Positions 132 through 21,311 of a stretch of DNA of 26,905 nt are shown here, in pieces. This DNA is from a virus. The notes under the pieces are model-generated. The model was not told the DNA's origin and did no database searches. It saw only the letters and a program-made list of their open reading frames with translations. Every line of letters begins with the position of its first letter. The first letter of the stretch is position 1. The stretch is taken from IMG/VR virus record IMGVR_UViG_3300042198_000097, positions 1 to 26,905 of that record. One strand, written 5' to 3'. The translations under genes were made by a program, and so were the position numbers.

Positions 132-159
132 AAATCCCCCATAAATTTATGGGGGATTT
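132..159. terminator. Perfect 14-bp palindrome, bidirectional terminator candidate
   Basis: AAATCCCCCATAAA is followed at once by its exact reverse complement, giving a perfect 28-bp palindrome with a GC-rich core. It lies 23 bp beyond the stop of the minus-strand gene at 183-905. Only short T runs follow on either strand, so it may be a weak terminator or an operator rather than a classical strong terminator. Confidence 0.5.
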
Positions 160-182: not shown

Positions 183-905
183 TTATGCTGCCAATGCAGA
201 TATAATATTCTTAGTAGGCATATAACATCTATCTTGATTAAACTCAAAAGTTCCGGGTGATTTCCAGCCCCAATGAATTATGAGCTGGTTGTCTCTTATA
301 GCGTTGTTTTGGCTAAAAAATTTAATTGGAACTGGTTTGTTTAGGAAATACTTCTTATTACTCTTGCTGCCAGAACTACGCCATAAATGCCAGTCATAAT
401 CCACTTCCGTTACTTTCCACTCTAATACCGGTGAATAAGTGTTAGTCCTTACTTTACCTATGTAGCTTATTCTGTTTAGTAAGTCACATAGCCCGTCCGT
501 ATGCGCTACAACAAACCAAGTTATCTTTTTGGTAATACGTTCTGGGTAAAAATCTCTAGTGTCCCAATAACCCCGGTATGCCTGCTTGTCCTCCATGGTT
601 AGTTTAACGCATGGGCTACTACACTGCCAGTACCAGTCTTTCTCGTTCTTATTGTTTAGCCAACCGGTTTTAAGTGGCATATATTGCCTAATGTAGTTTA
701 CACTTCTTTGCGCCTGTTGCAGGTCAGGCTTATATTGTAATAGCGCGTTTTCTAGCATTAGCTTTCTAACCAAGATGGATTCCAGGGTGGGTGACCACTG
801 GTCTAATAACGCTATAGGGCGTTCCAATATTACTGAAACAACTATTGATTTGTAACCAAACGCCAAGTTATTTCCATAAGAATAGTCGGTTTTCATATCT
901 ATCAT
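183..905 (-). CDS. Orphan Cas5/Csf3-like RAMP protein (candidate)
   Basis: This 240-residue protein has the layout I know from type IV CRISPR Csf3 (Cas5-like) proteins and their phage relatives. An N-terminal beta strand of the type VVSVILERPIALLDQ (about 22-36) is followed by a helical segment with SILVRKLMLENAL. A central W-rich part with WYWQCSSP (91-98) comes next, then a strand ITWFVVAHTDGLCDLL (128-143), the turn YIGKVRTN (148-155) and LEWKVTEVDYDWHLW (161-175). A PVPI motif (191-194) and a C-terminal region rich in W and C follow. In Csf3-type proteins the IGK turn belongs to the RAMP fold that grips the crRNA 5' handle. No other cas gene or CRISPR array is present here. The start at 905 is uncertain, because ATG 896 is in frame and neither has a clear Shine-Dalgarno sequence. 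The family call rests on pattern recognition only. Confidence 0.5.
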   Translation of the reverse strand: MIDMKTDYSYGNNLAFGYKSIVVSVILERPIALLDQWSPTLESILVRKLMLENALLQYKPDLQQAQRSVNYIRQYMPLKTGWLNNKNEKDWYWQCSSPCVKLTMEDKQAYRGYWDTRDFYPERITKKITWFVVAHTDGLCDLLNRISYIGKVRTNTYSPVLEWKVTEVDYDWHLWRSSGSKSNKKYFLNKPVPIKFFSQNNAIRDNQLIIHWGWKSPGTFEFNQDRCYMPTKNIISALAA

Positions 906-960: not shown

Positions 961-1119
961 ATCTGCGCTACAATGATTGTGTACCGCAGTTCGGGCGGGA
1001 CTGTCTGAACACCAGACAGAAAGACTTATCCTGGCAAGGGAAAGTAAGCAGAAAGGTGACAATCTGCATAGATGTGCCGGAAAATTAAATGGCGCACCAT
1101 TGGGTAAGCCAATGGGAAC
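961..1119 (+). ncRNA. Structured RNA element, copy 1 (full length), HEARO/omega-RNA-like
   Basis: This is the most complete of four related elements. In order it shows: a basal stem CTGCG (963-967)/CGCAG (985-989); TTCGGGCGGGA; hairpin TGTCTG (1002-1007)/CAGACA (1013-1018) followed by GAAAGAC; a variable hairpin GCAGA/TCTGC around GGTGAC (1048-1067); TGTGCC (1073-1078)/GGCGCA (1091-1096) enclosing GGAAAAT.AAAT; and a terminal hairpin CCATTGG (1097-1103)/CCAATGG (1109-1115) closing on GTAAG and ending in GGGAAC. Stems change in a compensated way relative to copy 2 (GGCGCA against GGCACA, both pairing TGTGCC). The 3' segment TAAGCCA..GGGAAC resembles the 3' end of published HEARO/IscB omega RNAs as I remember them. 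A TACAAT box lies at its 5' end. It runs antisense to both flanking genes and has no downstream gene. Confidence 0.55.
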
Positions 1120-1127
1120 GCGTGTAA

Positions 1128-1565
1128 TCAAGAGACTACAAAATTAAACCCGCATGCACCGATTACCTTTGCGTCTGGAGTGTTGTAGCGTACTACCTTA
1201 TATGGTGTTACCAGCCACTTCATAAACTGGCTGGCTTTTCCTGTATTTGCTGCATGGTTGGCAAAAGTTAGGGAAACTATAAAGATAGTCGCGCTATCTA
1301 ACTTATCTTCCGGAAAAACTATTTCCCCATACTTACTTGTAACCGTAGGCACGCTAACTTCATCGTCTAGAAGTATAGTTGGGCCGACAGTGGATTTTAC
1401 GTCCACTCTGGCTACAATACCAGATACAGGGACAGTGAGAATAGGCTCTCCATATACTTGGTCTGCCTTCCAAATGCTAGTATTGGTTTTATCCTGCTTT
1501 AATCCCACAAACTGGGATTCTTTGTACAAGTAAAACGGGTGTGGGCATAAATTCATTATTTTCAT
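1128..1565 (-). CDS. Conserved phage protein of unknown function
   Basis: From ATG 1565 the protein has 145 residues. That start has AGGAAA about 7 bases upstream; an ORF start at 1598 is in frame but has no ribosome site. The protein starts MKIMNLCPHPFYLY and continues with SGIVARVDVK, a segment with PTVTSKYGEIVFPE, TIFIVSL and a C-terminal KVIGACGF. This pattern recurs in small phage and actinobacterial proteins of the form NLTPH...SG.VARV...V.T.FGEVE..P....TIYIVS...V..A and VIG..GF. No function is established that I know of. The predicted fold is mostly beta. No signal peptide or membrane segment is seen. Confidence 0.6.
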   Translation of the reverse strand: MKIMNLCPHPFYLYKESQFVGLKQDKTNTSIWKADQVYGEPILTVPVSGIVARVDVKSTVGPTILLDDEVSVPTVTSKYGEIVFPEDKLDSATIFIVSLTFANHAANTGKASQFMKWLVTPYKVVRYNTPDAKVIGACGFNFVVS

Positions 1566-1650: not shown

Positions 1651-3639
1651 ATGAATATGTCTAATTCTATTAATTTTGCTAATTCCTTATCTGCTAATAT
1701 TGACTCAAACATACTTAATGCGCTACAAAGCCTACTTAATTTGTTAGGTGTCAATAATTTTAACTTGAACAACTTGACAAATAATACGTCTCCGGTTTAC
1801 GATAGTGTGGTAAACCAAAAAAATCCCCCAAAAGTTCGGGGGAAAGGAGAACGTATGATAGCAAGTGCTATCCCCTTCTTATTATCATATCGTGGGCTAG
1901 ATTGTCAAGAGTTCGCGGTATTTTTCCACATATTAGCTAGGGCAGGTAATGGCAACGGTTGCTTTGAGTCCATGCCCAATATGTCCGCAAGACTGAAACT
2001 AGGCATAAAATCTCTCAGGGCAGTAATCCAACGACTACAGGAATATCGTCTCATCTACAAGTCGGAAGACCGTCCTGGCTATAGCCACGTTTATGAGGTC
2101 TATGACGAATCCCAGTGGATGTCTGAGGAGGAAATAGAACAAAAGCGGAATCAACTAAAACGCAAGAAATCTACTAAGCCAGCCAAAGAGGCTAAGTCAG
2201 TTAATGCAGATATACCAGTCACTCCAGTCATCAATAACCGGAATGTTGCCAATGTGGAAAAGATTAGGCTCTCTATAGAGAATAAAGTTAAACAACAACT
2301 GGCTAGTCAAGGCTTGGACGCAGCTATGTTTAATACTCCAAGTACAGTATCCACCCTATCTACACTAGATACTATACAAGACTCAGCGCAGGGAGTAGAG
2401 TCTATCAAATGCTTAGACGTGTACCCCGGCACAATTGATAAAAAAGTCGAAAATGACCGGGGTGGTACGGTCGAAATTGACAGGGGTATATTAAATATTG
2501 AAAATACAAATACAAAAAAAATATTAAAGAGAGAAGAGAAGAAAGCAGACCCTCTCTCTGAAAAAACTAGTTTAAGCGGGACTGAGATGGCAAAAGACAA
2601 AGACCAAAACCAAAAGACAGAAGACCTATTTGTAGATGCTCCAGTTGGCAAAAAGAAATCGGAATTATCGACTGAACAAATCAGCTATCTAGAAAAGTGG
2701 TTTTCTTCCGGGGCGCTTAAAAAAGTTTTTACAATTCGCGACGAGGATTTAGCTGCCCTTGAGGAAAAAGAACGTAAGCAAGCTGAAAAGAGACAGCAAC
2801 GCATAGAGGAACAAGCGAAAGCATCCGAGGAGGGGTCTAGTAGGGTGTTTGGGTATCTTGGATGTGACGAGTATGGCAATAAGAAGACTGCTCAAGAGTC
2901 CAGAAAGCCCGTAAAAATGTGGTACGCACCTACAGGAGAACAATTCCCGGAAGCCAAACCGGAAGCCAAACCGGAAGCCAAACCGGAAGTTAAACCAGTC
3001 GTAAATCCTGTTTTAGATGCCGTAGTTGACCAAAATGTCCAGAAGTTCATTGAGCAGGAATCGGACGTGCTAGAGGCTCAAATAGTGGCAATTGAGAAAA
3101 TAGAAGTACAGACCAATCCTGTTAATCCAGTTGCAGCTATATTGGCAAAACCGGTAAAACCTATATTGGCTAACAAGCTAGGTGCTAATGACCAGAGATT
3201 AGTAGATAGGGTTGAAACTTATCGGAACGCCTTTGACCAAGGCAAAACTAACTTTACTCCACTGCAATTACAAGAATGGGCAGTTGTAGATGGCATGGAA
3301 GATATCATCAAGGCGTATAGGAAATCTGGTAGAATCCTGCATTCAGCACCTAACGACGTTAATTTTGAGTTTATCTGTTGGCTAAATAACCAGCATAGTC
3401 GTGGCTCTAACCAGAAAGACGACGGCTATGCGCTTAATTACATTAAGAAAATGGAGAGAACTCCAAGTGACTGGTCTACTCTTATGGCGTTAGTAGCGCA
3501 ATGGCAAGGAGTTAAGCAGTCTGGTAATAGCCTGTTTCGTATATCTAAATTTGCGGAAGTAGAGCAGCAAAACCGTGACTACCAAGAGGTTAAGGAGATT
3601 ATGAATCGCACTGAGCTGAACTGGACAGATGAAAAATAA
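1651..3639 (+). CDS. Winged-helix replication initiator (lambda O-like by position)
   Basis: Read from ATG 1651 the product has 662 residues. The first 68 are Asn-rich and low in complexity. Next comes a compact helix-turn-helix domain: LLSYRGLDCQEFAVFFHILA, then MPNMSARLKLGIKSLRAVI and LIYKSEDRPGYSHVYEVYD, the wing of a winged helix as in phage O proteins and plasmid initiators. The middle is a long charged, probably disordered linker with a coiled-coil stretch (EEKERKQAEKRQQRIEEQ) and four KPEA/KPEV repeats. The C-terminal 140 residues are helical. A lambda P-like gene follows. An internal ATG at 1855 carries a perfect AAAGGAG five bases upstream and starts exactly at the folded domain, so the true or a second product may begin there (594 residues). 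The initiator role is inferred from fold and neighbourhood. Confidence 0.6.
   Translation: MNMSNSINFANSLSANIDSNILNALQSLLNLLGVNNFNLNNLTNNTSPVYDSVVNQKNPPKVRGKGERMIASAIPFLLSYRGLDCQEFAVFFHILARAGNGNGCFESMPNMSARLKLGIKSLRAVIQRLQEYRLIYKSEDRPGYSHVYEVYDESQWMSEEEIEQKRNQLKRKKSTKPAKEAKSVNADIPVTPVINNRNVANVEKIRLSIENKVKQQLASQGLDAAMFNTPSTVSTLSTLDTIQDSAQGVESIKCLDVYPGTIDKKVENDRGGTVEIDRGILNIENTNTKKILKREEKKADPLSEKTSLSGTEMAKDKDQNQKTEDLFVDAPVGKKKSELSTEQISYLEKWFSSGALKKVFTIRDEDLAALEEKERKQAEKRQQRIEEQAKASEEGSSRVFGYLGCDEYGNKKTAQESRKPVKMWYAPTGEQFPEAKPEAKPEAKPEVKPVVNPVLDAVVDQNVQKFIEQESDVLEAQIVAIEKIEVQTNPVNPVAAILAKPVKPILANKLGANDQRLVDRVETYRNAFDQGKTNFTPLQLQEWAVVDGMEDIIKAYRKSGRILHSAPNDVNFEFICWLNNQHSRGSNQKDDGYALNYIKKMERTPSDWSTLMALVAQWQGVKQSGNSLFRISKFAEVEQQNRDYQEVKEIMNRTELNWTDEK
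1824..1857 (+). promoter_or_regulatory. Internal hairpin and strong ribosome site inside the initiator gene
   Basis: A CCCCC (1825-1829)/GGGGG (1838-1842) hairpin lies immediately before AAAGGAG (1843-1849) and the in-frame ATG 1855. This is the best Shine-Dalgarno match in the gene, whereas ATG 1651 has none. It supports translation of a shorter product that lacks the Asn-rich leader. Confidence 0.5.
2947..2994 (+). repeat. Four tandem 12-bp repeats inside the initiator gene
   Basis: CCGGAAGCCAAA occurs three times in tandem, followed by the variant CCGGAAGTTAAA. The repeats encode PEAK/PEVK. In lambda the replication origin consists of iterons inside gene O, so these may be origin iterons, or merely a low-complexity linker. 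An A/T-rich stretch lies 430 bp upstream (about 2487-2530). Confidence 0.7.
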
Positions 3640-11094: not shown

Positions 11095-11243
11095 GTTCCC
11101 ATTGATTGGTGTGCCATTTGATTTTCCGGCACATCTGCGTACAGCGTCACCGCTTGTACTTACTCCCATTTCGGAGAGTCTTTCTGCCTGGATGCCAGAC
11201 AATCCCGCCCGAACTGCGGTACTCTTGCAGTATAACGCAGGTT
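11095..11243 (-). ncRNA. Structured RNA element, copy 2 (full length)
   Basis: On the minus strand it repeats the order of copy 1: CTGCG...CGCAG stem, TTCGGGCGGGA, hairpin TGTCTGG/CCAGGCA followed by GAAAGAC, hairpin CTCC/GGAG, a long hairpin GTAC.AGCG/CGCTGTAC around GTGA, then TGTGCC/GGCACA around GGAAAATCAAAT, and GGGAAC at the end. Several helices differ in sequence from copy 1 but keep pairing, which is strong evidence for a folded RNA. It ends five bases before the start codon of gene L, in sense orientation. Confidence 0.6.
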
Positions 11244-13947: not shown

Positions 13948-14012
13948 GTTCCCTATTTGATGGTAGTAATCCCGCCCGAACTGCGGTACATTTTTATTGT
14001 AGCACAGATTTC
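13948..14012 (-). ncRNA. Structured RNA element, copy 4 (internally deleted)
   Basis: On the minus strand it has the 5' part of the element (AATCTGTGCTACAAT, then GTACCGCAGTTCGGGCGGGA) joined directly to the 3' end (ACCATCAAATAGGGAAC). The 90-base middle is missing. It forms the leader of the following tail gene, three bases before the start codon. Confidence 0.55.
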
Positions 14013-19990: not shown

Positions 19991-20890
19991 ATGGCTAAAC
20001 CCATTAAAAAATTGCAAAATCTGTTAAATCAGATACAGGTTGGAAATTCTTGGACTACGGGAGAAACCGCATTAGATAAAACGGAAGACCAAATCCGTAA
20101 TATTATTTTTGGGTGCCATCATGTTCCAGATACCGTTTGGGACGTTTGGGATTACAGTCCACCTAGTGCTTTGACTTATGCCCTAGATATCAATAACTCT
20201 AGGAAATATGCCTATAAAATAATAGAGATGCTTAAACGCTATGAAGATATGCCGTATAAGCAGATACATTATAAAAGTATATGTAAATTAGTGTGGTCTA
20301 TATTTCAGTATGATCCAGAAAGTGCGTGCAGATATCTAGCCACGATGCAACAAAGACAAGGTTTTGTACCAAGTTACTACGATGAATTGGTGCATCAACA
20401 TAAGAAGTTTGATGAAAAAGCCGGACTTAACAGTTTTTTCTCTTACAATGCAGATTTAGAGGAGGTAGGATTAGATGAAAGAGCTTTAATATTAGGCTTT
20501 TCTGACCTTAATACGCTAAATATTTTAAATGGTAAAAAAACCATAGAGCTACGTAAAAATAAACCACGGTTTTTGGATTTTGTGCTTATTTATAACCGTG
20601 AAACTAAACATATTGTAGGGAGCTTCAACGGGTCTTTGATTTGCAAAAAATCTATTAAAGACTGGGAGGAACTACAGACTGAGCTAAATATGTCTACTAT
20701 AGAAATAAGCAGCTACTTAAATGTTTACATGGGTTACGGGATTACAATTAAAAACGTTAAGAAGTTTGTAAAACCGATTCCCCATAGTGCTATACCGGGA
20801 TTTAATACTACTGCTGCCAACAAAGAGTTTCGCTATCTAAGTTCTAGTCAGATCAATTCCTGTCGTTCCTATCAAAGTTTTCTTGAATAG
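19991..20890 (+). CDS. ASCH-domain (PUA-like) protein
   Basis: The protein has 299 residues. The C-terminal half is an ASCH domain, a PUA-like beta barrel: LNTLNILNGKKTIELRKNKP (174-192) with the signature GxKxxExR, then FVLIYNRETKHIVGSFNGSLI, and YMGYGITIKNVKKFVKPIPHSAI near the end. ASCH proteins are thought to bind RNA or modified bases. The N-terminal 160 residues are helical and unrecognised (ALDINNSRKYAYKIIEML..., SACRYLATMQQRQGF). The start has GAGG eleven bases upstream. The neighbouring HNH gene lies in the same direction; the last codon overlaps the RNA element copy 3. It could regulate RNA or protect modified DNA, but this is open. Confidence 0.65.
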   Translation: MAKPIKKLQNLLNQIQVGNSWTTGETALDKTEDQIRNIIFGCHHVPDTVWDVWDYSPPSALTYALDINNSRKYAYKIIEMLKRYEDMPYKQIHYKSICKLVWSIFQYDPESACRYLATMQQRQGFVPSYYDELVHQHKKFDEKAGLNSFFSYNADLEEVGLDERALILGFSDLNTLNILNGKKTIELRKNKPRFLDFVLIYNRETKHIVGSFNGSLICKKSIKDWEELQTELNMSTIEISSYLNVYMGYGITIKNVKKFVKPIPHSAIPGFNTTAANKEFRYLSSSQINSCRSYQSFLE

Positions 20891-20955
20891 TGCGCCATTT
20901 AATCTTCCGGGTAATCTTACCAGAACTGCGGTACTCTCTTGTTGTAGCACAGATT
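20888..20955 (-). ncRNA. Structured RNA element, copy 3 (shortened)
   Basis: On the minus strand: AATCTGTGCTACAAC, then GTACCGCAGTTCTGGTAAGATTACC and GGAAGATTAAATGGCGCAC. The TGTCTG hairpin and the variable hairpins are missing, and a new small stem GGTAA/TTACC replaces them. It overlaps the stop of the ASCH gene and runs antisense to both the ASCH and HNH genes. The decay pattern differs from copy 4, indicating independent deletions. Confidence 0.5.
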
Positions 20956-20981
20956 TATTATCGTTGATCCAGGAGCTAAAC

Positions 20982-21311
20982 ATGACACAAAGTAACTACA
21001 ATGCCAGATACGGAAACCTGAAAAAGTATAAAAAACGCGTACACAAAGCGCATTTAAAGACTGGTGGACGCTGCTGCTGTTGCGGAATTAATCCTTCTGA
21101 AGAAATCCACCATACTAGTTACCGCAAGTCTGGAGATAAATATGGTATCAATATTTTCCCGGTTTGCAAACATTGTCATACCAAGATATGCCATTCTAGC
21201 GAGAACTGGATAAAGTCTAAGTCGGATCCAGTCTGGGGAAACCATAATACCAAGGATTTTACGGATTTACTGAAACTAAAATATAAGTTTTTGTACAAAA
21301 AAACCGGATAA
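20982..21311 (+). CDS. HNH endonuclease
   Basis: From ATG 20982, preceded by AGGAG seven bases upstream, the protein has 109 residues; a start at 20883 would read through the RNA element. It has the zinc-supported HNH core: CCCCG, EEIHHTSY with the general-base His pair, KYGINIFPVCKHCHTKICH. The Cys pairs flank the motif as in standalone HNH homing-type nucleases. The N-terminus is basic. Small HNH genes in phages often act in intron or gene mobility, or near terminase in packaging; here it sits between ASCH and the tail operon terminator. It is not an IscB protein, since no RuvC parts are present. Confidence 0.8.
   Translation: MTQSNYNARYGNLKKYKKRVHKAHLKTGGRCCCCGINPSEEIHHTSYRKSGDKYGINIFPVCKHCHTKICHSSENWIKSKSDPVWGNHNTKDFTDLLKLKYKFLYKKTG

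Follow-up and report, generated by a model that had tools for sequence, protein, structure and literature searches.

A solitary Csf3 homologue in Raphidiopsis raciborskii cyanophages, a candidate decoy of type IV CRISPR complexes

What can a phage do with a single Cas5-type subunit when the rest of the CRISPR complex is missing? The question is raised by an open reading frame in a 26.9-kb virus record (the window, meaning the whole stretch of DNA that was analysed), for which an original prediction had proposed an orphan Csf3/Cas5-like protein in a phage, possibly partnered by a structured RNA encoded upstream of it. The features of the locus are collected in Table 1.

Table 1. Features of the csf3 locus in the window (residue numbers refer to the 240-codon frame)
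Feature	Position	Strand	Basis or description
csf3/cas5-like orphan gene	183..905	-	open reading frame, 240 codons
Segment-loss junction, residues 122/123	537..542	-	alignment of orphans with other sequences
Altered loop, residues 150-160	426..458	-	GKKRSxGxGQV replaced by GKVRTNTYSPV, conserved glycines lost
Orphan-specific short insertion SSGSKSNKKYF, residues 177-187	345..377	-	alignment; precedes PVPI
Terminator-like hairpin	132..159	-	3' of csf3, 12 pairs
Conserved neighbour gene (CrV_gp057 homologue)	1128..1565	-	adjoins csf3 in all three orphan phages
Structured guide-RNA-like scaffold	981..1119	+	end CAATGGGAAC
-10-like element of the scaffold	969-974		TACAAT
Guide-like flank	1120..1143	+	GCGTGTAATCAAGAGACTACAAAA; extends into the 3' end of the neighbour gene

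The window covers part of the genome, roughly 100 kb long, of a cyanophage of Raphidiopsis raciborskii. Its Csf3-like protein shares 99.6% identity with hypothetical proteins encoded by CrV-01T (MH636380, 104 kb) and Cr-LKS4 (OQ625504, 101 kb), two complete and near-identical isolates whose host is Cylindrospermopsis/Raphidiopsis raciborskii, a bloom-forming cyanobacterium. The open reading frame is a real gene. Its homologue was called in both sequenced phages (CrV_gp058 and CrLKS4_g60). A search of a viral structure library returned one significant match, to an entry of 240 residues whose sequence is the same as that of the window protein (100% identity). Translation probably begins at Met4 (window 896), since Cr-LKS4 is annotated from that residue (window ~896) and the homologue on contig L057 starts at its equivalent. 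Orphan csf3 genes are known in three phages, namely those of the window and of contigs L001 and L057, and the proteins of the latter two are 69-70% identical to that of the window.

The predicted kinship with Csf3/Cas5 is borne out by sequence profiles as well as by structure. PADLOC typeIV_Cas5 models match the window protein with E=3.6e-14, 1.8e-11 and 3.1e-11, mainly over residues 116-232, and Pfam and NCBIfam give zero matches to it. A family profile matches the solved Csf3 chains 7xfz_B (1.9e-7) and 8rc3_F (5.7e-6); the profile was needed because a single-protein sequence search of solved structures gave chance matches only. With canonical phage Csf3 as the tblastn query, only CrV-01T and Cr-LKS4 matched among 50,697 phage records (E=6e-28). 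The AlphaFold2 model used here was built from 25 sequences (pLDDT 78.7, pTM 0.80) and replaces an earlier shallow model from 10 sequences (pLDDT 59). Its three best Foldseek matches are all Csf3 (5e-8 to 1e-6), and VIA-align superposes it over 177-180 residues on 8rc3_F, 8rc2_F and 7xg1_B at an rmsd of 3.3-3.6 and Z scores of 15.8-16.4, the next row falling to Z 6.7. The modelled protein has the ferredoxin-like fold of a Csf3-type RAMP, including the core whose absence had been proposed in advance as the refuting outcome, and the motifs IGKVRTN, LEWKVTEVDYDW and PVPI, on which the prediction had relied, occur in the protein and coincide with conserved Csf3 positions in the alignment. Descent from Csf3 is indicated by significant matches both to models of the family and to Csf3 sequences of known structure, and the protein is a genuine, near full-length homologue of Csf3, the Cas5 of type IV systems.

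The gene is an orphan, since both complete isolates carry csf3 without Csf2, CysH or Cas11. Queries with Csf2, the PAPS reductase CysH and Cas11 found no match in the whole CrV-01T and Cr-LKS4 genomes, and the same searches were positive in every canonical record tested; the solitary phage gene had thus been read correctly, and the isolate phages do not encode it together with any of these three partners. The more general statement that neither cas neighbours nor an array are visible is true of the window and, where Csf2, CysH and Cas11 are concerned, can be widened to the whole isolate genomes; it does not extend to CRISPR arrays and a Cas12u2-like gene, which these genomes carry outside the window region.

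Other phage contigs and a Gloeobacter plasmid carry type IV systems that are complete and related. Relatives of the orphan at 25-35% identity occur on IMG/VR contigs L011-L055 and on the Gloeobacter plasmid pGMOR1. The closest, where inspected, lie within complete, phage-borne Cas11-Csf2-Csf3-CysH-Csf1 operons, and the complete type IV operon of pGMOR1 additionally contains Cas6. On one complete-operon contig, the terminase matches include PaV-LD and CL131 (35-37% identity) as well as phages of other hosts. A single type IV locus on one phage contig (L013:1699-8665) holds three csf3 paralogues, two cysH and two csf1-like genes. Two scans of genome contigs found no cellular relative, which is weak evidence of absence because exact peptide patterns were used, and comparison of the phage array spacers with the canonical type IV contigs yielded no convincing match. 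Viral csf3 genes have been described in the 'Fuxiviridae', where csf3 and cysH belong to a type IV-B effector module with a mini-array (PMC10848311); csf3 likewise sits in a viral genome here, but alone.

Compared with Csf3 of the CysH-associated, IV-B-like loci on phages and pGMOR1, the orphan shares near full-length homology, the RAMP fold and the conserved W/P/G positions at about 27-35% identity, but differs in several features. One of them, a deletion specific to the orphans, had escaped the original prediction, as had the complete phage-borne operons, the arrays and the Cas12-like gene. A segment of 24-26 residues (WGKRKAKxxTSEGAEKxYDLP), present in 24/24 other sequences, is absent from 3/3 orphans. 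HMMER aligns it to residues 105-120 of P. oleovorans Csf3; in K. pneumoniae, interference by type IV-A3 requires the Cas5 thumb arginines 102-110, through which PAM DNA is recruited (PMC11519345). From this alignment position and the type IV-A3 data, the lost segment probably corresponds to the DNA-engaging thumb of Csf3. A working Csf3 would be expected to carry the thumb-aligned segment ahead of its second ferredoxin-like half, and none of the three orphans does. The loop GKKRSxGxGQV, with its conserved glycines, is replaced by GKVRTNTYSPV, GKVKTNTYSPV or GKPKTNSYSLI, and the orphan has gained a short insertion and bears an N-terminal extension. In the phylogenetic tree the orphans group together with 100/100 support, and the stem of this single clade measures 2.18 changes per column, so their shared features count as one evolutionary event and not as three. 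Between the csf3 genes of the window and L001, pN is 0.18 and pS 0.78 (saturated); as pN lies far below pS, the orphan gene is, judged from its sequences, under purifying selection.

The explanation that best accommodates these observations, to which a probability of about 0.5 is attached, is that the orphan acts as a dominant-negative Csf3 decoy that jams rival type IV complexes. According to this explanation, a solitary phage descendant of the Csf3 (Cas5) of CysH-type, IV-B-like systems would have shed the probable DNA-engaging thumb and retained the RAMP core. It would be incorporated into a competitor's type IV complex, be it that of another phage, of a plasmid or of the host, displacing the true Csf3, and a complex containing it would be unable to recruit target DNA. 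The observations in its favour are the homology, the fold, the solitary state, the loss of a segment and the gain of an insertion, the long-stem clade and the selection on the gene, to which is added the existence of complete related systems on other phage contigs and a cyanobacterial plasmid. From these we infer who the rival is, that the orphan enters its complex and that the inhibition is dominant-negative. Of the roles that the original prediction had offered, interference with host CRISPR complexes would agree best with the data. At about 27-35% identity to canonical Csf3, the orphan may be too distant to be exchanged into canonical complexes, and the repeat or guide-RNA elements that all three phages have close to the locus would also allow a function together with RNAs of the phage itself.

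The closest precedent for such a mechanism is AcrIB3, a Cascade-poisoning phage Cas5 mimic (Katz et al. 2024, reviewed in PMC13131331) that replaces Cas5 in the complex, lacks an 18-residue hook and possesses a new loop. Both proteins are solitary phage Cas5 homologues in which a segment is gone and a short loop is new; AcrIB3 belongs to type I-B, the orphan to type IV, and different segments were lost. A common origin of the two would be hypothetical, and inhibition by the orphan is putative. A solitary phage cas5 homologue under selection, as expected of a Cas5-mimic anti-CRISPR, is what these phages contain.

The neighbour gene of csf3 is 78-84% conserved among the three orphan phages, and its product gives a weak match (E 0.007-0.04) to PADLOC Unk_01, described as a 'small protein, sometimes fused to CARF'. 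A distant homologue of this neighbour gene lies at L032:111-533 (+), on a contig that also has a canonical type IV csf3 (E=3e-9).

The structured RNA noticed upstream of csf3 is real and part of a larger family. About ten copies of the scaffold are dispersed in each phage, and twelve copies share a common structure of 31 pairs, with compensatory changes in 10; Rfam gives zero matches to this RNA. The copies terminate in GGGAAC, after which the sequence varies from copy to copy, and some of these flanks are present at element-free sites of a sister phage, once after TTTT. Scaffold copies lie beside phage CRISPR arrays with the repeat GTTGGGAACGGGTGGAGAAGTTAGGTCAATGGGAAC, and the genome encodes a Cas12u2/TnpB-like protein of 667 residues with the RuvC motifs GIDPG, WEE and ADVNAARN, which is why the scaffold probably serves the phage's type V-U2-like system as a natural single-guide or tracr-type RNA, the Cas12-like protein being its presumed user. 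Cyanophage CL131 similarly has a V-U2 system with an array and a Cas12/TnpB-like protein, for which no tracrRNA is reported (PMC6293099); the dispersed structured scaffold beside arrays sets the phage of the window apart, and csf3 is no part of the CL131 system. The specific pairing of csf3 with this RNA, also proposed originally, finds no support in that form: the RNA is one of many dispersed type V guide-like copies, and its adjacency to csf3 is not conserved. In the window the scaffold is divergent from csf3 and 5' of it, in L001 it is 5' of csf3 on the same strand, and in the 70%-identical L057 it lies beyond the neighbour gene, not adjacent to csf3. Relative position and strand thus differ in all three phages, and the scaffold RNA, which belongs to a separate system, is not a fixed or obligate partner of csf3.

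Several further observations concern the elements themselves. In the window, additional full, truncated or degenerate scaffold copies are located near gene starts at 11095-11222 (-), 13948-13989 (-) and about 20886-20934 (-). The flank of the copy at 11220 recurs at an element-free site of CrV-01T (L003:9511), and an HNH protein with a weak match to an IscB model is encoded at 20883-21311 (+), its start overlapping a degenerate scaffold on the other strand. A scaffold with a mini-array occupies L021:12260-12534 (-), where CrV-01T and Cr-LKS4 are element-free with TTTT preceding, an arrangement that looks like guided homing. At about 2950-3180 (-) of L057, a scaffold is directly followed by a two-repeat mini-array whose last 'spacer' enters the start of the next gene, and repeat remnants are also found 3' of csf3. 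One array spacer (L007:9549-9585, L009:9122-9158) is antisense to the scaffold, matching the L001 copy at 34/35 and one CrV copy at 32/33 positions; guide-RNA genes may be targets or pairing partners of the phage CRISPR.

In another reading, Csf3 serves the phage's own CRISPR by binding or processing the array transcript or the dispersed guide-like RNAs of the type V-U2-like Cas12 system, replacing a missing Cas6. The isolate genomes combine arrays and a Cas12u2-like protein with no annotated Cas6, and a guide-RNA element or CRISPR repeat adjoins the pair of neighbour gene and csf3 in 3/3 phages, where a rough estimate from 13 element clusters among about 124 genes predicts about 0.3 per phage, so that a link between csf3 and RNA is conceivable. 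Such a role is unlikely all the same, given the shifting strand and position of the RNA relative to csf3 and the loss of the glycines from the loop after GKxR in the orphan; moreover, the phage search yielded no match to csf3 (E<=1) in CL131, which has a V-U2 system with an array (PMC6293099). A bolder version, in which a Class 1 subunit has been adopted by a Class 2-like phage system and handles single-guide RNAs and array transcripts for the type V-U2-like Cas12 in phage-phage competition, appears distinctly improbable. Exaptation as an RNA-binding protein for an unrelated phage function, for example regulation together with the conserved neighbour protein, would fit the constant adjacency and conservation of the neighbour gene and the very long stem branch. 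It has no positive evidence for any particular function and the sole match of the neighbour protein, weak as it is, points to a CRISPR-linked small protein, which leaves it rather unlikely.

Two simpler readings fare worse. A functionless vestige left by the decay of a type IV operon would explain why csf3 is solitary and why conserved elements are missing, but three phage lineages, about 70% identical, have kept the frame intact; this reading was set aside as very improbable because pN is far below pS. The window spans just 27 kb of a genome of roughly 100 kb, and its protein could in principle belong to a complete type IV system whose other genes lie outside this stretch. That is barely credible when Csf2, CysH and Cas11 find no counterpart in either whole isolate genome by searches that succeed in canonical records.

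The decoy reading lends itself to experiment, since two isolated phages carry the gene, one of them (Cr-LKS4) with a named host strain, R. raciborskii KLL07. Phage mimics of Cas proteins are already established for type I, with AcrIB3, and to our knowledge no candidate inhibitor of the CysH-type type IV family has been put forward before. If the orphan is indeed a decoy, it would be the first such candidate, and phage-borne type IV systems would act strongly enough between competing elements to select a counter-measure.
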